A stretch of DNA of 23,463 bases from IMG/VR virus record IMGVR_UViG_3300044799_000902, positions 1-23,463 of that record. One strand, written 5' to 3'. Positions 6,557 through 21,033 of the stretch are shown here, piece by piece; within the stretch, counting starts at the first letter, position 1; every line of letters begins with the position of its first letter. This DNA is from a virus. Made by a program: the position numbers and the translations under genes. The notes under the pieces were generated by a model, which was not told the DNA's origin, did no database searches, and saw only the letters and a list, made by a program, of their open reading frames with translations.

Positions 6557-6629
6557 TCCCCTGGGCGGTATTCAGTTTTTTACTTCACGATGGAATTCTG
6601 CGCGATAACTTTCTTGAGTGGCAAGGGTC

Positions 6630-6663
6630 AAAAAAAGAAAATACTACGTTTTGTAATATTTTC
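6630..6663 (-). terminator. AT-rich hairpin followed by seven T (minus strand), terminator-like
   Basis: On the minus strand the arms GAAAATATTA and TAGTATTTTC pair over 9 of 10 positions around a 7-base loop, followed immediately by seven T residues. This lies 21 bases after the stop of the zinc-protein gene, where a terminator or attenuator would be expected. The stem is unusually AT-rich for an intrinsic terminator in such a GC-rich genome, so termination may be weak. The same stretch could instead be an AT-rich regulatory or protein-binding site. Confidence 0.5.
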
Positions 6664-6683
6664 TTTTCTCGTCCCGGGGCCGG

Positions 6684-7049
6684 CTACCAGGGCACATCCT
6701 CGTCCTTCAGACCCATGACCCGTTGTTGTTCCCTGGGGTCATCATTGGTTTCCAGGCGGAGCTTGAAATGCTGGCCGCAGGCCTTGCACTGCACGTTGGC
6801 CCAGACGATGAACCGGTAGGGTTGCCCCGTGACCTTGCTGACCCCCGAATGTTCCATGACGGTCGGCGGGTATCCGGGCGTGCGACGGTAGAGGCTGCTG
6901 CCACAGGCGGCATTCGGGCAATGCACCGGCACCGCCGGCACGATCGGACGGGGAATGTTGGCGCTGCCGGCGGGCCGGCCGGGCCTGCGCTTGGTACTTT
7001 GCTTCCGTGCCTTCCTTGACATCCTTGCCATCCTTGCCATCCTTGCCAT
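6684..7049 (-). CDS. Zinc-ribbon protein with AT-hook-like motif, Ogr/Com-like (121 aa)
   Basis: Likely a small nucleic-acid-binding regulator. A basic N-terminus (about residues 1-25) contains RRPGRPAG, which resembles an AT-hook core. Four Cys (44, 49, 88, 91) in HCPNAACG and VQCKACGQHF suggest one zinc site. An Arg-Thr pair after the first Cys pair and an aromatic stretch before the second recall the Ogr/Delta late activators and Com of Mu-like and P2-like phages. AAGGAG lies 8 bases before ATG 7049. The first ten residues (MARMARMARM) come from a 9-bp tandem repeat that also provides several alternative starts. Its place inside the packaging cluster is compatible with control of late transcription, but this is inference. 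Confidence 0.65.
   Translation of the reverse strand: MARMARMARMSRKARKQSTKRRPGRPAGSANIPRPIVPAVPVHCPNAACGSSLYRRTPGYPPTVMEHSGVSKVTGQPYRFIVWANVQCKACGQHFKLRLETNDDPREQQRVMGLKDEDVPW
7021..7047 (+). repeat. 9-bp tandem repeat, three perfect copies
   Basis: The unit ATCCTTGCC occurs three times in a row (7021, 7030, 7039), with a degenerate fourth copy at 7012-7020 (7/9). It encodes the repeated Met-Ala-Arg at the start of the zinc-ribbon protein. Because the unit is 9 bases, copy-number change keeps the frame and only alters the number of N-terminal Met-Ala-Arg units and alternative starts. Confidence 0.85.
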
Positions 7050-10801: not shown

Positions 10802-11041
10802 TCAACCCTTCGATTGCTTCAGCAGCCACGCAGCATAGTGGATCAGGTTGATCGTGCCTCCAGCGCCCACCGGCGCCCCGGCCGCCGCGTGCTGGCGTAC
10901 CTTCTCCTCCGGCATGGCCAGCATCTGCGCCAACTGGGTCACGGTCATCGCTGTGGGATTCACCGGCCCTGGCTCGCCGAGGGCGGAGGATCCTGCCACG
11001 GGTGACGTGGGATTCATCGCGGAACCTTCGCTAGTCGCCAT
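10802..11041 (-). CDS. Small helix-turn-helix protein, candidate small terminase subunit (79 aa)
   Basis: Placed directly before the large terminase gene, where small terminase genes lie. After a flexible Pro/Ser/Gly-rich start, residues 32-78 (MTVTQLAQMLAMPEEKVRQH, then GAGGTINLIHYAAWLLKQ) look like a short helix-turn-helix or winged-helix DNA-binding module. The ending resembles residues 41-60 of the large subunit (RIGDGRNIHLPRYVAWLIER), which suggests a shared module. It is short for a small terminase (lambda Nu1 is 181 aa), so it may be a recognition subunit with oligomerisation supplied elsewhere, or a regulator. It overlaps the methyltransferase gene by 11 bases. Confidence 0.55.
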   Translation of the reverse strand: MATSEGSAMNPTSPVAGSSALGEPGPVNPTAMTVTQLAQMLAMPEEKVRQHAAAGAPVGAGGTINLIHYAAWLLKQSKG

Positions 11042-11852
11042 AAGTCTTTGCCACCCCGGCCTGCTCGGCCGGGGTTCTCTCTCCCGAAGTGTTCGCCGCG
11101 ATCCGCTCGGCTTTCTTCCCGGTGAACTTCTCCCATCGCTGCACGATCACGTCGCAGTAGAGAGGGTCGATCTCCATCAGGAATGCCCTCCGGCTGGTCT
11201 GCTCGGCGGCGACGAGCGTGCTCCCGGAGCCCCCGAAGAGGTCCAGCACGACCTGTCCAGTCCGCGAGGAATTGGTAACGGCACGCGCGACCAGCTCGAC
11301 GGGCTTCATGGTCGGGTGGTCGTCGCTGACGCGGGGGCGGGCGATCTCCCACACGTCGTCCAGATCCCGCCGGTCGCAGAACGAGGATTCCCCCTTCGTG
11401 TGCCAGCCGTACCAGAGCGGCTCGTACCGGCGGTGGTACTTGCTCCGGCCCAGGACGAAGAGATCCTTGACCCAGATCACCGTGGCCGACCAGTGGAATC
11501 CGCAGCCACGAAGGACCGCGTCCAGGCGCGGCCACTCCGACGCGCCGAGGATGCAGTACACGTCGCCCGTCACGACGGCCGGGACCCGCGTGATCCAGGA
11601 CTCCAGGAACGCCTGGTACTCCGCCGGGGAGAGATCGTCGTTCTGCAACCCCGGTCGTTGCCGGTGCCTGGGGTTCGCGTCGCCCCCGATGGCGACGTTC
11701 CACGGGGGGTCGGTGAACAGCATGGTCGCCTTCTGACCCTCCATCAGCGTCGCCAGATCGGCACCCTTCGTGGAATCCCCGCAGAGCAGCCGATGCCGGG
11801 ATTGGACCGGGGCATCGAAGGGCTTGCCGCACTTCTTGCAGGTGCAGGTCAT
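11031..11852 (-). CDS. DNA amino-methyltransferase, DPPW type (273 aa)
   Basis: Predicted to methylate adenine N6 in phage DNA. The order of motifs is that of the beta group: catalytic motif IV DPPW at 48-51 first, S-adenosylmethionine motif VLDLFGGSGSTL at about 202-213 last, with the typical HPTMKPVELVAR just before it. The N-terminus MTCTCKKCGKPF carries a Cys-x-x-Cys, then SRHRLLCGDST, the usual linker seen right after a ParB domain in fused ParB-methylase proteins. ATG 11852 overlaps the stop of the ParB-like gene by 4 bases (ATGA), so the two products are probably made in similar amounts and may act together. No restriction endonuclease gene is nearby. Confidence 0.9.
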   Translation of the reverse strand: MTCTCKKCGKPFDAPVQSRHRLLCGDSTKGADLATLMEGQKATMLFTDPPWNVAIGGDANPRHRQRPGLQNDDLSPAEYQAFLESWITRVPAVVTGDVYCILGASEWPRLDAVLRGCGFHWSATVIWVKDLFVLGRSKYHRRYEPLWYGWHTKGESSFCDRRDLDDVWEIARPRVSDDHPTMKPVELVARAVTNSSRTGQVVLDLFGGSGSTLVAAEQTSRRAFLMEIDPLYCDVIVQRWEKFTGKKAERIAANTSGERTPAEQAGVAKTYGD

Positions 11853-12382
11853 GTCGGGTTCTCTTCGCCGCAGTGCGGGCACTTGACGTAGGCACCGAGC
11901 AGCCACAGGTCGCCCGGCTTGGTGATGGCCTCATCCGGGAGCATCGGCACCTCGTTGGGATCGGTGAGGCCAGCTTGGACACCCCCGTCCAGCAGCTTGG
12001 CCAGTTCCTTCTCGTCGAATCCGAGCAGGGACAGGTCGAAGTCGGCCGCCTGGAGATCCTTCAGCTCGATAGGCAACAGCTCGTAGTTCCACTCCGACAG
12101 CGCCGCCGTCTGATTGTCCGCGATGCGGTAGGCCCTGGCCTGCTCGGGTGTCATGTCTGCGGCGATGTGCACGGGGATCTGCGCCAGGCCCAACTTCACG
12201 GCAGCCTTCCAGCGAACATGACCGACGATGATCACCCCTTCGCTGTCGATCACGACCGGCTGGCGCCACCCGAAGGCCCGGATCGAGGCCGCCACGGCGT
12301 CTACACCTCGATCGTTGATGCGCGGATTTTTCTCGTAAGGCCGGATCTCCTCAGTTTTTCGCCATTCGATCTTCATGCTCAT
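11849..12382 (-). CDS. ParB-like nuclease-domain protein (177 aa)
   Basis: Residues 1-100 follow the ParB/Srx fold pattern: IEWRKTEEIRPYEKNPR, VDAVAASIRAFGWRQPVVID and VIIVGHVRWKAAVKLG, the last in place of the usual GH-x-R box. The ending ITKPGDLWLLG is the phrase that normally joins a ParB domain to a DNA methylase in one phage protein, but here it is followed by YVKCPHCGEENPT and a stop. The next gene restarts with a Cys-x-x-Cys and the methylase. The likely role is to aid or target the partner methylase, or DNA binding. Two starts are possible: ATG 12382, and ATG 12376, which is better spaced from the GGAAGGG ribosome site. Confidence 0.88.
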   Translation of the reverse strand: MSMKIEWRKTEEIRPYEKNPRINDRGVDAVAASIRAFGWRQPVVIDSEGVIIVGHVRWKAAVKLGLAQIPVHIAADMTPEQARAYRIADNQTAALSEWNYELLPIELKDLQAADFDLSLLGFDEKELAKLLDGGVQAGLTDPNEVPMLPDEAITKPGDLWLLGAYVKCPHCGEENPT

Positions 12383-13532: not shown

Positions 13533-14684
13533 TTAGCCATGCTGGATTGCTATCCCTGATCCCTCGCGGTCCTGCCACGCCATCTGAGCGGCCACGTACC
13601 GAATGACGTCCAGCCTTCGCGGCATGAAAGGTCCGGCCATCGCCTTTTCCATGTAGGTTTTCTGCAACTCATCCGGCAGGCCGTCGAAGTATGCCCTTCG
13701 CTGGTCTGCCTGGGCCGCTTGAGCGGCTTTTTCCGCCTCGGCCTGCGTGTCGGATTCTTCCTGGGTTGTCTGACTTGTTTGACGATTTCGGTTCGCCTCG
13801 GCCCTGGCGATCCTGGCAGCCGCCTGGTCGGACAGGTATCGCAGCACCCAGCCGAACCCGAAGGTCCGTTCTTTCTTGTTCGCCAGCTTGATACCGCCCC
13901 GGATGGCCTTTTCGTCGATCTCCGCCAGGCTCTCCCGATCCCCCAACCGGTATTCCCGCTTGATCTTCCTTCGCCAGCTCGCTGGCATCCCCCTGGCGTG
14001 GATGGTCCGGTAGGCCTTGTCCGCCTGGACGATCAGGATCTCCAGTTCCAGGGTTGGGATGGTGCTTGGGTCAAGAAGGTCAAGAAGACCAGAAACGCGC
14101 ACACACTCCCCCGCTTGCGGGGGGGTAGGGGGGGTGTTGTTTAAGAATGAGGGGTTAAGAATCGCTCCGCCTGGCAGAGCGCTAGGCCCGCCGGAACGGA
14201 GCGCCTCTTGTCTAATAAGCTCCCCCGAATCGTCCGTAGCGCTCTGCTGGCCGGAGCGCCTTTCCTCCTGCTGATTTCTCCCCGGCGCTCTGCTGGGCGG
14301 TGCGCTGTCCATGACCGGCAAGGTAGGTTCGGCGCTCTGCTGGACGGAGCGCTCTAGCAGGTGAGTCAGGACCTGGTAGCAGACCGCCCCAGCCCGGCCG
14401 ACCGCCTGGACCTCCAGGTATCGCCCGATCGCCGCCCCTATACCCCCTACGGCCCCTGGGATGCCCTTGCGGAGCGTGGACGCCACGGCATCGCTGGACA
14501 GGCCGAAGTCCCGCCTGAGCTGGCGGTAACTAGCCCATGCCCGTCCGGTGGCGGCATCGGCCTGGCCGATCACCGCCGCCACGACCACGCGCTGGGCGGG
14601 CGTCAGCCGGGGGTCTGCCAGTGCGGCCCGGATCAGCCGCAGGGCCTTTGTGGCCGGCAGAGTCAATGGGGTTACTTGTCCCAT
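13533..14684 (-). CDS. Replication-initiator-like winged-helix protein carrying iterons (383 aa)
   Basis: Residues about 25-75 (DPRLTPAQRVVVAAVIGQAD, then WASYRQLRRDFGLSSDAVASTLRKG) match the winged-helix start of phage replication initiators and replisome organisers. Residues about 110-174 are a Ser/Gln/Pro/Gly-rich linker whose DNA consists of 21-bp palindromic repeats. The C-terminal half is charged and helical (KAYRTIHARGMPASWRRKIK, a Gln/Glu/Ala coiled stretch near 300-330, and PRRLDVIRYVAAQMAWQDRE). The layout of a DNA-binding N-terminus, repeats in the middle of the gene and a partner-binding C-terminus parallels lambda O. It lies just upstream of the integrase gene. I do not see helicase or primase motifs. 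Confidence 0.65.
   Translation of the reverse strand: MGQVTPLTLPATKALRLIRAALADPRLTPAQRVVVAAVIGQADAATGRAWASYRQLRRDFGLSSDAVASTLRKGIPGAVGGIGAAIGRYLEVQAVGRAGAVCYQVLTHLLERSVQQSAEPTLPVMDSAPPSRAPGRNQQEERRSGQQSATDDSGELIRQEALRSGGPSALPGGAILNPSFLNNTPPTPPQAGECVRVSGLLDLLDPSTIPTLELEILIVQADKAYRTIHARGMPASWRRKIKREYRLGDRESLAEIDEKAIRGGIKLANKKERTFGFGWVLRYLSDQAAARIARAEANRNRQTSQTTQEESDTQAEAEKAAQAAQADQRRAYFDGLPDELQKTYMEKAMAGPFMPRRLDVIRYVAAQMAWQDREGSGIAIQHG
14108..14162. other. G-tracts and AT-rich direct repeats beside the iterons, candidate unwinding element
   Basis: CCCCCGC (14108-14114) and GCGGGGG (14117-14123) form a near-palindrome. It runs into two seven-G tracts (14119-14125 and 14128-14134), which could form a quadruplex. 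An AT-richer stretch follows with TTAAGAAT twice (14141-14148 and 14155-14162). It lies directly beside the palindromic iterons, in the relation that the A/T-rich unwinding region has to the iterons of lambda ori. Still coding within the replication gene. Confidence 0.45.
14162..14352. repeat. Four 21-bp palindromic iterons inside the replication gene, candidate origin
   Basis: Units at 14239-14259, 14285-14305 and 14332-14352 share GCGCTCTGCTGG followed by one variable base and then CGGAGCGC (the second unit has CGGTGCGC). A more diverged unit lies inverted at 14162-14182, and a half unit CGGAGCGC lies at 14197-14204. Each unit is itself an imperfect palindrome (GCGCTC and GAGCGC arms). Start-to-start spacing is 46 and 47 bases. 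They encode a non-conserved-looking Ser/Gln/Pro linker. Iterons within the initiator gene are the hallmark of lambda-type origins. Confidence 0.7.
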
Positions 14685-14688
14685 AATC

Positions 14689-14928
14689 TCACGGATTTCT
14701 GTTCCAAGCCACCAGGCCCGCGATGCTGAGGATCAGGAAAAGTGCGTCCCGCACGGCCAGTGCGATCATCCCGGCCGAAAGGTGCAACACCCCCGAGGCC
14801 GCGTTGGAGACCATCCAGATGAAAAAGCATCCTCTGTGCCTGCGGTTGTTCAGCAGCACGCCGGTTACGGCCAGTGCCGTCACGGCCCAGCCGATGATTT
14901 CAAGGGCAGGTAGATGCAATCCGGCCAT
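14689..14928 (-). CDS. Small integral membrane protein (79 aa)
   Basis: Three likely membrane spans are visible: LEIIGWAVTALAVTGVLLN, CFFIWMVSNAASGVLHLSAG, and ALAVRDALFLILSIAGLVAW. The middle FFIWMVSN segment and the following helix are reminiscent of one repeat of PnuC-type transporters, but this may be only composition. Arg/His-rich loops would face the cytoplasm. A perfect AGGAGG lies 6 bases before ATG 14928. The gene overlaps the end of the SPPY methyltransferase gene by 29 bases, so it is expressed with it. The role is unknown; superinfection exclusion or lysis control are guesses without direct support. Confidence 0.75.
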   Translation of the reverse strand: MAGLHLPALEIIGWAVTALAVTGVLLNNRRHRGCFFIWMVSNAASGVLHLSAGMIALAVRDALFLILSIAGLVAWNRNP

Positions 14929-15890: not shown

Positions 15891-17810
15891 CTATCCTATT
15901 TCTCCGAACGGGATTTCTTGCCAACCTGTAACGCCAACGACTTGAAGCGTTCTGGCAACCTCGTCGAGCAGGATGGTCGCGTTGGGCTGGTTGTCTTTCA
16001 CGGACGCATACCATCCGAACGCCCCCGGTCCGCCTAAAGAGCCTTCGGTGATCCATTTGGTGTTCCCACTTCCGGCATTGCGGGCGAAGGTCGAGCCGCC
16101 GGGGTTCTTCAGGTCGCCGAGGGCGGCGAAATCGCTGGGGACGGGCTGTAACTCAGGATATGCCTTCATCCAGGCGGCGTTGCCGTGGAAGTCATTACCT
16201 TCCGTCCTACAGGCGATGCGGAGCTTCTGGAGGAAGTTGCAGTCATGGCCCGCGGCGTTCGTGATGATCGCCACGCCGCGCCGGTCGGCACGGTGGGCGG
16301 TGTAGCACCCGATAATCACATTGTTGGCGAAGTGGTTGTCTCTCCCACCTCCGTTGAACATGGCGATGCCGCCAAGACGGGCAAAGACGTTGCCGTAAAC
16401 CTCCGTGCCGCTCTGGGCGTCGTCAAGGTACACCCCGAAGATCTCCCAGGGCGTGTAGGGGCTGGCCAGGTCGTGGATGAAGTTGTACCGGATCACGTTG
16501 CCACGGTAGTCCCAACTCCGTCCGGCATAGATCGCCCCGGCGTCGGCGGTCTCCTGGCAGACGTGGTGGATATCATTGAACTCGATGATGTGGTTATTGC
16601 CGTAGAACCAGATCGCCTGGTGGGGCGCGTCGTGCATCGTGTTGCGGGCGACGATCTGGCCCACGCCCTCGATGTGGACGGCGACCTTGCTGGTCCGCAC
16701 CCACCGGCCCCAGTCGTGGACGTTGCAGTGGCGGACGAAGTTCTCAGCGGGCTTCAGCGCCGCACGGTCCCCGCCCGTCAGGTGAACTCCCCGCTCGCCC
16801 GCATGGGCGATGATGCAGTCCTCCAGGCCATTGCGGCTGCCGGAGACGACCGCCCCGCCGCGCCCGAAGTTGCGGAGCGTGCATTTCGACAGGCAGCAGT
16901 TCGATCCGCCCTCGATCCGCACCAGGTCCCCGCGAACGGCCTCTAGGGTGAGCTTTTCAAACCGGACGTAGTTTGCGCCTGTCAACGTCAGGAGAGGTTG
17001 TTCCATCATCGAGACGACAATATCCGCGTTGGCCAGGTCCACGCCCTCCGGCGGGATCAGGAACAGTTGCCCCGTGAAGCGGTCGATGAAGTATTCCCCT
17101 GGTTCGGTCAACTCCTCCAGTAGATTGACGACGCGGTAGAATCGGTCGAGCTTGACCCCGTACTTGGGCACCATCGCCAGGCCGATCTCGTGGGTCGCCG
17201 CGTTGTAGGAGGCGACCCTGATAAGCTCGTTGTACCAGAAGGCCCCCAGGTTCCCATGCACCCAACCGTGGGCGATCAGGTTGTCGGCAGAAGCCGAACC
17301 AAAGTACAGAATCTTGCCGTCCGGCCCGATCCGCAGCGTGTCCGTGCCCGCCAGGGCCATCGGCACGCCATTGATGAACAGTTCCATCGGCGCGTTGGCG
17401 TCGGGGCCGAATCCGCCTCGCGGACACAGTTGTCCGTAGTCCTCGATGCCGTGCCCGGCGAGGTCATAGACTAGTTCGCCAACAAGGATGCCCGACGGCA
17501 CACCGGACCTGGGCACAAAACAGGCCCCATTGAGCCGCACGCCGCCGATGATCCGCACTTTCTCTGTGCCGTAGGCTTTGTAGGCTACGTATCGGCCAGC
17601 CCTGCCGCTATCGGCCTCCGACATGGCGAAACTCGCCGATCGCAGATAGACGCCACTGCGCAGATAGATCACGATGCCGCCGGAGGGGATGCCGGAAGCG
17701 ATCACGGCGCGGGCGGCCCGTTGCGCGGCTTCCAGCGTAAGGAAAGGCTGCGTGCTGGTGCCGAGGTTGCCATCGTTGCCTTTGGGCGAAATGTAGAAAG
17801 ACTTACTCAT
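15891..17810 (-). CDS. Right-handed parallel beta-helix protein (639 aa)
   Basis: The start MSKSFYISPKGNDGNLGTST plus PFLTLEAAQRAARAVIASGI is the classic N-terminal cap of secreted beta-helix (pectate-lyase-like, DUF1565-like) proteins. Residues about 290-520 form repeated short strands rich in Asn, Gly and His (LVRIEGGSNCCLSKCTLRNF, IVARNTMHDAPHQAIWFYGN, NHIIEFNDIHHV, GAIYAGRSWDYRGNVIRYNF). No signal peptide is visible. It is therefore either cytoplasmic or a virion tailspike/depolymerase released at lysis. It sits among modification genes rather than tail genes. ATG 17810 overlaps the preceding stop (ATGA), and upstream codons of the open frame are spurious. Catalytic residues cannot be assigned by eye. 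Confidence 0.85.
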   Translation of the reverse strand: MSKSFYISPKGNDGNLGTSTQPFLTLEAAQRAARAVIASGIPSGGIVIYLRSGVYLRSASFAMSEADSGRAGRYVAYKAYGTEKVRIIGGVRLNGACFVPRSGVPSGILVGELVYDLAGHGIEDYGQLCPRGGFGPDANAPMELFINGVPMALAGTDTLRIGPDGKILYFGSASADNLIAHGWVHGNLGAFWYNELIRVASYNAATHEIGLAMVPKYGVKLDRFYRVVNLLEELTEPGEYFIDRFTGQLFLIPPEGVDLANADIVVSMMEQPLLTLTGANYVRFEKLTLEAVRGDLVRIEGGSNCCLSKCTLRNFGRGGAVVSGSRNGLEDCIIAHAGERGVHLTGGDRAALKPAENFVRHCNVHDWGRWVRTSKVAVHIEGVGQIVARNTMHDAPHQAIWFYGNNHIIEFNDIHHVCQETADAGAIYAGRSWDYRGNVIRYNFIHDLASPYTPWEIFGVYLDDAQSGTEVYGNVFARLGGIAMFNGGGRDNHFANNVIIGCYTAHRADRRGVAIITNAAGHDCNFLQKLRIACRTEGNDFHGNAAWMKAYPELQPVPSDFAALGDLKNPGGSTFARNAGSGNTKWITEGSLGGPGAFGWYASVKDNQPNATILLDEVARTLQVVGVTGWQEIPFGEIG

Positions 17811-18808
17811 CTTTGATCTCCTTTTCCCCCGCCGCCTCGCAGGGTTTCGGGGAACTCCTCGTGCATCCGGCCATCGAGCATCCGGCCGGCCTTGACTTTG
17901 CCGCATCGCCACAACTCAACTGATCCAGGATGATCCCGCCCATATCCGAATGGAGTGCCCTTCCACCATTGACCGTCCGGCGCAACCACACCCCGGTGTT
18001 CAGATGCCGGATTGCCCGCAGACCACTCACCCCAACTCTTGAAGAAGAACGGCACATCAGCGGCGGCGCACTGGTCGCGGACCTTGCGCACCCAGTCGGG
18101 GTGCATGGGCCGGGCGCCTGGGCCCGTCTCCCCGCCGATGATCACCCAGTCGATAAGAATATCGCTAATAAAATCAGGATGTGTCTGTGTTCCCGTGTAT
18201 TGACTATTCCAAATCCACTCCAGACGAAGCGTTATCGGCCCCAGCATCGGCTCTAGGCTGACGATGTGGACGGCGGCGGGGATTTGCATCAGGATCGGGA
18301 TTCGCTCATCGGCGGTGGCCTGGTCCTCGACGGAGACGCCGGGCCACAGGTTCGGCAACGGCCAGGCGAAACTGTCCGGCAGTCCATGGTCATGAGCCAC
18401 CATTACATGCTGTTTTTTCAGGCGAGTTATTCCCCCTCGTTCATGCAGGTCGAGCAGGTACTCTGTTATGCGTTCTGCCCGTTTGGTCAGCACGATGAAG
18501 GTATGGCGCGGACAGTTTGAGATACGGGCAAGGACACGATCCACAAATTCATCCGGCACGGCCGGATGAAACAAATCTCCCATCGAGCAGACGAAGATGC
18601 GGCTGGGCTTGCGCCAGTGAAGGGGCTCATCGAGACGTTCGGGATGGAGCGTGACGGCGAAGGGTTTGTCGGCGGGATAACCACACCGCCCGGCCAGGCG
18701 CCGGGCGAAGCGGGCGGCGTAGCAGTGCTCGCAACCCCGGCTGACAGGCGTGCAGCCGGTGACGGGGTTCCAGACCTTTTGCGCCCACGGGATCTTCGTG
18801 TCACCCAT
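17807..18808 (-). CDS. Phage Gp37/Gp68 family protein (DUF5131) (333 aa)
   Basis: Residues 13-35 read WNPVTGCTPVSRGCEHCYAA, with Cys19, Cys26 and Cys29 followed by Tyr. This is the family's Cys cluster, thought to be related to radical-SAM or spore-photolyase-like iron-sulfur sites. Other family blocks are present: FVCSMGDLFHPAVPDEFVDR, FIVLTKRAERITEYL, WPGVSVEDQATADERIP, VSLEPMLGPI, DWVIIGGETGPGARPMHPDW, and VPFFFKSWGEW. The length suits the family. The biochemical role is not established to my knowledge; nucleotide or base chemistry is a common guess. It overlaps the Cys-rich gene upstream by 8 bases and the beta-helix gene downstream by 4, so it belongs to the same operon as the methylases. 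Confidence 0.92.
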   Translation of the reverse strand: MGDTKIPWAQKVWNPVTGCTPVSRGCEHCYAARFARRLAGRCGYPADKPFAVTLHPERLDEPLHWRKPSRIFVCSMGDLFHPAVPDEFVDRVLARISNCPRHTFIVLTKRAERITEYLLDLHERGGITRLKKQHVMVAHDHGLPDSFAWPLPNLWPGVSVEDQATADERIPILMQIPAAVHIVSLEPMLGPITLRLEWIWNSQYTGTQTHPDFISDILIDWVIIGGETGPGARPMHPDWVRKVRDQCAAADVPFFFKSWGEWSAGNPASEHRGVVAPDGQWWKGTPFGYGRDHPGSVELWRCGKVKAGRMLDGRMHEEFPETLRGGGGKGDQR

Positions 18809-19583: not shown

Positions 19584-20525
19584 CTATGAGTCATCTCCTG
19601 GTACGGCCATCTCGGCCCCCGGCATGGCCGCCTCGGCCTTGTCAGGGGTTTTTCTTCTGGCCCTATTGGCCCTATTGGCCCAAAAGGCTTCCAGTGCGGC
19701 CTCGATCTGTTCTCGGCCTTTTCCTGCCAAACCGCCCAGGCCACGGACGTCCGCCGCCCAGAAGTCGCCTTTTTGGGCTTGCCAGTCGGCCAGCTCGCCC
19801 ATCGTGGTGACCGGCGGATCATGTTCGGCCAAGGCGTTGATGTAGCGATCCTGGATGCCGAGTTCCATCAGTGGGATTTCGCGCCAAGCATCCTGATCAA
19901 AAGGGCGCGGGGGTTGGCTGGCCACGGCACGAGCTGTACCCGTGCCAGGGTCGGGCCCGTCAGTCTTGTCAAAAAGCGGCAGCGGGCCTAGATCGCCCAG
20001 CAGTCGCCCTGCGGCCTGGCGGAGGCGGCCGAAGGCGTCGGTGAGGGCCTCGTGGCACTTCTTGGCCTCCTCCCTGGCCTGGGCGTAGGCGATCTCGGCG
20101 TCGCGGAGATTGCTGTAGGCCGCCGCCAGCTCGTCCTTCGCCGGTTGCCATGCCTCGGCGGGGGGTTTGGCCGAAAGATCAAGTGATTCAGCCACAGAAG
20201 ATTCGGCGGGCCGATCCTCCTTGGGCATATCCGTGTAGCCGATGCAATACGGGGCGATCCGATCGTGCCAGTCCGCCAGCGAATAGTGGATGAAGGCGCC
20301 GTAATCCTCCTGGAACCGAAGGAGGTTGTTCTGGGGATCCACGCCGAGATAGATCAGCGTGTAGACTTTTCCGTTTTTGCCGTCCTTTTCAATCTCGAAG
20401 GTCCGCCACTTGGGCGTCTTTTCGATGTCGATGTGGCCGTAGTTGACCTGGGGCTGCTGGGGTTCCGGGATCGAACTGCCTGATGGATCATTGACCGGCG
20501 AATTGCATTTCTTTTTACGTCCCAT
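19584..20525 (-). CDS. Protein with C-terminal RNA polymerase alpha-CTD-like module (313 aa)
   Basis: Residues about 220-290 read IPLMELGIQDRYINALAEHD, TTMGELADW and DVRGLGGLAGKGREQIEAAL. This follows the alpha-CTD order: a first helix with a Leu-x-x-Leu-like start, a short helix around GEL, and the helix-hairpin-helix LGxxGxxQIxxAL that binds DNA in RNA polymerase alpha. The middle (about 120-175) is a predicted coiled coil (EAWQPAKDELAAAYSNLRDA and on). The N-terminal 100 residues are of unknown fold (KWRTFEIEKDGKNGKVYTLI). ATG 20525 overlaps the ASCH gene by 11 bases; the longer open frame is a shadow of that gene. A role in transcription takeover or DNA binding is inferred. One copy of the 31-bp repeat lies at residues about 192-202. 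Confidence 0.65.
   Translation of the reverse strand: MGRKKKCNSPVNDPSGSSIPEPQQPQVNYGHIDIEKTPKWRTFEIEKDGKNGKVYTLIYLGVDPQNNLLRFQEDYGAFIHYSLADWHDRIAPYCIGYTDMPKEDRPAESSVAESLDLSAKPPAEAWQPAKDELAAAYSNLRDAEIAYAQAREEAKKCHEALTDAFGRLRQAAGRLLGDLGPLPLFDKTDGPDPGTGTARAVASQPPRPFDQDAWREIPLMELGIQDRYINALAEHDPPVTTMGELADWQAQKGDFWAADVRGLGGLAGKGREQIEAALEAFWANRANRARRKTPDKAEAAMPGAEMAVPGDDS
19920..19950 (-). repeat. 31-bp palindromic interspersed repeat, copy 2
   Basis: Reverse complement of the element at 1212-1242 with 30 of 31 bases identical; similarity fades over the next 8 bases on one side and stops at once on the other. Here it encodes GTGTARAVA in the alpha-CTD-like gene, in a linker just before the CTD module. 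The two copies are read in opposite orientation relative to their host genes. Confidence 0.85.
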
Positions 20526-21033
20526 GGGCTTCTCCAATCCGGCTACGGCTCGGCGCTTCGCCGAGACGAGTGGCCTGCCTGACTTGCCGGCCGGCCGGGC
20601 CCAGGTCCTTACGTAGGGGATAGTGCAGGTAGCACAGGCCGCAGTGTAGGGCCTGTTTGGTGCACCCCGGCATCCGGCAGCGATCTTTGGCGGTCGGTAG
20701 AGATGCCGCCGCGCCCGGTAACTGGACCTCAAAAAGTCGCAGGCTCCCCCGCACACGGAAGGGTTCGAGCCGCCGGATGTTTTTCAGCACCCAAGCGATG
20801 GCACCGGGATAGCATTCACAGCAGGCGGCCGGCTCGTCCTGGGGAGTCATCGGCCTGCAATCCACCAGTTCGGCGACGGCCAGGGCGTAGCCGGCCAGAT
20901 CAATGGCTGGTGATCGGGCCGAGCAGATCAATAACTCCCCGCGATAACTCGTCCGCCACCGGCGGGTCTCGATCGTCTTTTTGCCGTAGGCGATCAGGCT
21001 CGCCCACGGCTGCTTGACGGATAGGGCCTTCAT
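20515..21033 (-). CDS. ASCH-domain protein with C-terminal Cys cluster (172 aa)
   Basis: MKALSVKQPWASLIAYGKKT plus IETRRWRTSYRGELLICSAR is a textbook ASCH start: a PUA-like beta-barrel with the G-x-K-x-x-E-x-R pattern, known in RNA-binding or modified-nucleoside-processing proteins. GSLRLFEVQL closes the barrel near residue 105. A Cys/His cluster follows (C119, C124, C131, C134, H137 in CRMPGCTKQALHCGLCYLHY), probably one zinc site, and then a basic tail. ATG 21033 directly follows the stop of the C5-methyltransferase (TGAATG), so the two are made together; recognising or processing a modified base is an attractive but unproven idea. Confidence 0.88.
   Translation of the reverse strand: MKALSVKQPWASLIAYGKKTIETRRWRTSYRGELLICSARSPAIDLAGYALAVAELVDCRPMTPQDEPAACCECYPGAIAWVLKNIRRLEPFRVRGSLRLFEVQLPGAAASLPTAKDRCRMPGCTKQALHCGLCYLHYPLRKDLGPAGRQVRQATRLGEAPSRSRIGEAHGT
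20552..20575 (+). repeat. 24-bp interspersed repeat with hairpin, copy A
   Basis: GGCGCTTCGCC, then G, AGACGA, and GTGGCC. It matches the reverse complement of 22733-22756 at 21 of 24 bases. Here CTCGGCG (20549-20555) and CGCCGAG (20559-20565) around CTT make a compact hairpin. It lies in the basic tail of the ASCH gene. With only 21 matches, chance similarity is not excluded. Confidence 0.45.

Follow-up and report, generated by a model that had tools for sequence, protein, structure and literature searches.

A probable lambda-O-style replication origin inside the initiator gene of a putative Planctomycetota phage

We analyzed a 23,463-bp fragment of a viral genome (the window, i.e., the whole stretch of DNA) and found, midway through a minus-strand open reading frame of 383 amino acids, an array of 21-bp repeats. 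On sequence comparison, we consider it likely that a Planctomycetota phage has its replication origin here, inside its own initiator gene, with the repeats bound by the N-terminal helix-turn-helix of the encoded protein. A lambda-O-style origin with in-gene iterons had been put forward in an earlier, sequence-only reading of this DNA; it is the best explanation of the region, backed by the layout, a codon-shuffle test and a comparison of O-like genes, and the region is probably one more origin of a familiar kind and no new type. Counted for the origin reading were the repeats, constraint at the DNA level, the order of domains, an O-like N terminus, a shared layout in many O-like genes, the confinement of the motif to this gene and the replication genes that relatives carry in the corresponding position. 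Counted against it were the failure to find a homologue, sub-threshold family matches, the missing loader, a short AT-richer stretch, the missing GC-skew signal and the roughly half of O-like genes without significant in-gene repeats. The features of the region are as follows.

13533–14684, minus strand: O-like replication initiator gene, 383 aa (HTH_36, phrog_391, phrog_270, hhalign)
14332–14352, minus strand: iteron 1, GCGCTCCGTCCAGCAGAGCGC (coding strand), an imperfect inverted repeat (repeat search, dinucleotide and codon shuffles)
14285–14305, minus strand: iteron 2, GCGCACCGCCCAGCAGAGCGC (coding strand; repeat search, dinucleotide and codon shuffles)
14239–14259, minus strand: iteron 3, GCGCTCCGGCCAGCAGAGCGC (coding strand; repeat search, dinucleotide and codon shuffles)
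14197–14204, minus strand: lone half-site GCGCTCCG, possibly a remnant or weak site (sequence, half-site list)
14162–14182, plus strand: iteron 4, inverted and diverged, with 3 mismatches (repeat search, codon shuffle)
14137–14162, no strand assigned: AT-richer stretch with TTAAGAAT twice, a weak candidate unwinding element (composition, nearest-neighbor energy)
14108–14134, no strand assigned: C5/G7 hairpin and two G7 tracts adjoining the AT-richer stretch, encoding TPPTPPQAG (sequence)

A repeat search recovered the 21-bp imperfect palindrome where it had first been noticed, with three copies in direct orientation and a fourth inverted. The direct copies are spaced 46 and 47 bp apart (4.4–4.5 turns), and the repeats sit 330–520 nt into the initiator gene. 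Dinucleotide shuffles gave 0.06 expected matches in the window, and four matches were reached in 0 of 100 shuffles. The motif was found nowhere else in the window and, with up to 2 mismatches allowed, nowhere in 2.2 Mb of related loci; a search of all viral contigs returned three contigs with one match each and no array. Several iterons, each an imperfect inverted repeat, lie inside the gene and after the DNA-binding domain.

Beside the repeats, TTAAGAAT occurs twice (14141–14148 and 14155–14162), and the two seven-G tracts lie at 14119–14125 and 14128–14134, again as first described. The AT-richer stretch that had been claimed there is present, but it is weak and much shorter than that of lambda. 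At 68% AT, 14138–14162 is the gene's most AT-rich 25-bp segment and ranks within the top 0.5% for the window, and by nearest-neighbor energy the stretch is the gene's least stable 25–30 bp (top 0.3–1% of the window). It lies on the C-terminal side of the iterons, where such an element is expected, and at 25 bp is weak compared with lambda's. The C5/G7 hairpin had a DNA folding energy of −6.7 kcal/mol (z −1.4), which was not significant. AT content in the window peaks at 6608–6690 (as much as 85% over 20 bp), between two late-region genes. A similar order of elements in another locus, L085, prompted us to consider the FLNNTP-encoding stretch with its C-tract as a widespread DNA element; this candidate was rejected, the pattern matches in viral contigs being unrelated.

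To assess constraint on the DNA itself, we used a codon shuffle, in which synonymous codons are permuted while the protein and its codon usage are kept (100 shuffles; k = 14, 18 and 21). The repeat score of the initiator gene was reached in 0 of 100 shuffles at all three values of k; at k = 18, it was 9, against a shuffle mean of 1.55. Lambda O served as the positive control: its four annotated iterons were recovered, and its score of 7 at k = 18 (shuffle mean 0.68) was likewise reached in 0 of 100 shuffles. The repeat signal of the window's gene exceeds that of lambda O. Three control genes of the window gave no significant result. The direct copies start in codon phases 2, 1 and 2, with copy 4 on the opposite strand, so the copies are not a protein repeat. 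Together, the shuffles and the differing reading frames of the copies argue that selection acts on the DNA.

The encoded protein comprises a helix-turn-helix (approximately residues 13–73), a linker (approximately 110–195) and a helical C-terminal half. The HTH_36 profile matched its N terminus with an E value of 0.003, which falls short of Pfam's cut-off and is weak alone, and phrog_270, a replication initiator family, matched the N terminus with an E value of 0.008, also weak alone. For phrog_391 (“replication initiation O-like”), the E value was 0.011 in a library scan and 6e-5 in a one-genome search. When residues 13–72 were aligned by hhalign with a profile built from 15 O-like proteins encoded in Planctomycetota genomes, P was 4.4e-5, compared to 0.56 for the neighboring integrase as a negative control. 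Searches of NCBIfam and of the Rep_3 family gave no match. These profile comparisons place the N terminus, as a predicted DNA-binding helix-turn-helix, in the O-like class. We searched viral contigs, annotated phages, genome contigs, relatives and 294 Planctomycetota genomes for homologues of the whole protein, its N terminus and its C terminus, and none that was usable emerged; the sole match covered 28 residues (L106). Single-sequence structure predictions were poor (pLDDT 42 and 65) and were not used, giving no support for the winged form of the N terminus suggested in the sequence-only reading, and a fold search returned no significant matches.

We propose that the N-terminal helix-turn-helix (residues ~13–73) would bind, probably as a dimer, the four 21-bp imperfect inverted repeats, which lie in the segment coding for the flexible linker. 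The resulting protein–DNA complex may strain or wrap the DNA and so open the adjacent AT-richer stretch at 14137–14162, and the C-terminal half may then recruit a helicase or a loader, from either the phage or the host.

We compared the gene with phrog_391 genes drawn from 294 genomes of Planctomycetota as well as from genomes and records carrying terminase relatives. Significant in-gene repeats, as judged by codon shuffle, were present in 18 of 35 O-like genes but in only 3 of 39 neighboring ORFs, which were not curated as genes (Fisher P 5.8e-5); about half of the O-like matches, some of them weak or partial, had no significant in-gene array. In the O-like genes, the repeats mostly lie just after the helix-turn-helix, have a sequence private to each gene and are often palindromic, e.g., GAAGTGCAAAATCTGCACTTC in L192, TGCCGACGCGGAATCCGCGTCAGCA in L241 and CCGCCACCAGTGGCGG in L249. 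Their spacing ranges from 16 to 68 bp, and the 46–47 bp of the window falls inside this range; in L241, the spacings are 34/35/34/23 bp, while L195 has 47 bp between its first two copies, like the window. Unlike the window's protein, that of L195 is fused to what by eye is an ATPase-like C terminus, and the O-like genes differ from the window's in their iteron sequences, their linkers and their stronger phrog_391 scores. This comparison indicates that the in-gene iteron layout is common in phages and prophages of Planctomycetota. Three of the O-like matches (L234, L235 and L244) contain in-frame TGA or TAG codons inside the matching part, which suggests that they belong to decayed prophages.

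These comparisons also bear on how novel the origin is. The sequence-only reading had held that the palindromic unit differs from lambda iterons and, from this and the 46–47-bp period, had raised the idea of a new origin type. However, lambda iterons are themselves inverted repeats bound by O dimers (PMC5043065), so the palindromic unit is a shared feature and no difference, and since spacings of 16–68 bp are normal in O-like genes, the argument for a new type fails. We regard it as unlikely that the region represents a distinct origin subtype of Planctomycetota phages, in which an O-like initiator would load the host helicase without a phage loader, and a wide 46–47-bp array, one inverted site and a G-tract/hairpin aiding opening would stand in place of a strong AT-rich element.

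The record also carries genes for a gpA-type terminase, a lambda-type portal, a GP7-like capsid protein, a head protease, an integrase, a ParB_N protein and DNA methyltransferases. Relatives of this terminase, ~52% identical, are numerous in viral contigs and in genome assemblies, and since the assemblies are nearly all from Planctomycetota, the host very probably belongs to that phylum. Directly downstream of the initiator gene lies the integrase gene, instead of the loader or helicase of an ILH-type module (initiator, loader and helicase in a row), and no helicase or helicase loader was recognized among the scanned proteins of the 23-kb fragment. GC skew, a check proposed in the sequence-only reading, was run and gave no clear turning point or origin signal in the window, where the main genes are all on one strand.

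In relatives with the same terminase, methyltransferase and ParB, the slot upstream of ParB is usually occupied by an ORF of ~700–800 aa; in the five relatives scanned, it contained Prim-Pol and/or DUF3987 or DUF5906. One ORF further upstream, all three of those genomes that were scanned there have a DEAD-type helicase. In the window, the O-like gene and the integrase fill the slot where relatives carry this primase/helicase module. The Prim-Pol/DUF3987 module in the relatives' slot suggests that one replication module has been swapped for another, and it lends independent support to a replication role for the initiator gene. Like the window's gene, the module (L006, L046, L083 and L183) occupies the slot between the early genes and ParB, with arrays nearby in several cases; unlike in the window, its proteins are of the primase-helicase type and the repeats lie after the gene, not inside it.

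The relatives were first scanned for repeats across their whole genomes; this proved too noisy to use alone but pointed to arrays near ParB. Direct and inverted arrays lie between the Prim-Pol/DUF3987 gene (or a matching large ORF) and ParB at L006:4509–4750, L083:6394–6560, L145:6774–7003, L012:4763–4850 and L010:565–675, and the repeat GGGTGAAACGTGGG occurs in two of them. These arrays before ParB are possibly origins or regulator sites of the primase-helicase replication module. Two further relatives, one a viral contig and the other a Pirellula MAG, carry an array of GCGAGGTTAGCGAGGTTA in the slot before ParB, with three direct copies and one inverted copy (L069:1730–2170 and L173:1420–1860). 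In the window itself, the ParB_N gene is followed by an N6/N4 methyltransferase gene (11031–12382), a cassette next to the terminase that is conserved in many relatives, the best ParB matches among which are 62–70% identical. Directly upstream of the initiator gene, 14689–14928 encodes a 79-aa membrane protein resembling the NMN transporter PnuC (C-terminal part only), and the genes upstream also include those for a right-handed beta-helix protein (15891–17912), a DUF5131 protein (17807–18808) and an ASCH-domain protein (20515–21033). In a Gemmatales MAG, an ORF close to a terminase relative matches the CRISPR-associated DevR/Csa2 family (L155:52–1353).

Of the other explanations for the repeats, the one that survives best, though we give it only a small chance, is that they are operators: the helix-turn-helix protein, or some other regulator of the phage, would act there on transcription or on its own expression, with no origin involved. 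Repressors, too, pair a helix-turn-helix protein with palindromic sites, and the initiator gene has no helicase loader after it. However, the sites are 330–520 nt inside the gene, away from its start, and are spaced like an iteron array; the same in-gene layout recurs in genes that match a replication-initiator profile, and the gene occupies the slot of the relatives' primase/helicase module. It is less probable still that the repeats serve another phage protein, as integrase arm sites or as sites for ParB or a methyltransferase. The integrase gene is directly downstream, but over 600 bp separate it from the nearest repeat, and no copy lies near it or elsewhere in the window; ParB_N and methyltransferase genes are nearby as well, but both are common to relatives, none of which has the motif (≤2 mismatches, 2.2 Mb). 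Hairpins of the mRNA, acting in stability or attenuation, and an inserted palindromic repeat element were also considered; every unit can fold as a hairpin, but both readings are very improbable. In copy 2, one stem base is altered without compensation, while the loop-side CCAGCAG stays the same across the three direct copies, a pattern more in keeping with a DNA site than with a stem; Rfam gave no match, and no dispersal of the motif was seen in either the window or the viral contigs (three single matches). Finally, a by-product of a repetitive protein linker, to which the shared frame of copies 1 and 3 (encoding RSVQQSA and RSGQQSA) might point, is refuted by the codon shuffle (score reached in 0 of 100 synonymous shuffles); copy 2 also uses a different frame, and copy 4 is on the opposite strand.

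A search of the open-access literature with Planctomycetes, phage and iterons as joint terms returned no paper, so the origins of this phylum's phages seem to be little described. For phage genomes that lack annotation, the codon-shuffle test offers a simple route to in-gene origins, and its results indicate that these recur widely in Planctomycetota, each with iterons of its own. The O-like genes thereby provide many natural initiator/iteron pairs in which to study how binding specificity shifts while the site still encodes protein.

The in-gene origin proposed here is best compared with that of lambda, with which the window's initiator shares no detectable sequence identity beyond the helix-turn-helix class. 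The window differs from lambda in the sequence of its iterons, in their spacing (46–47 bp versus 20–24 bp in lambda), in having one inverted copy, in a shorter and weaker AT-rich stretch and in the downstream gene, which is an integrase here and P in lambda. The O proteins of the Stx phages P27 and 933W, unlike that of the window, are close lambda relatives with lambda-like iterons; in these phages, added iterons lengthen the O linker, the linker and the iterons being the same DNA (PMC7466680). The order along the window's gene is helix-turn-helix, three iterons, half-site, inverted iteron, an AT-richer stretch of ~25 bp, C/G-tract hairpin and C-terminal half. Lambda gene O (NC_001416) likewise has a helix-turn-helix, iterons, an AT-richer stretch and a C-terminal part, in that order, and in both, iterons of 18–21 bp that are imperfect inverted repeats lie in the middle of the initiator gene (PMC5043065).
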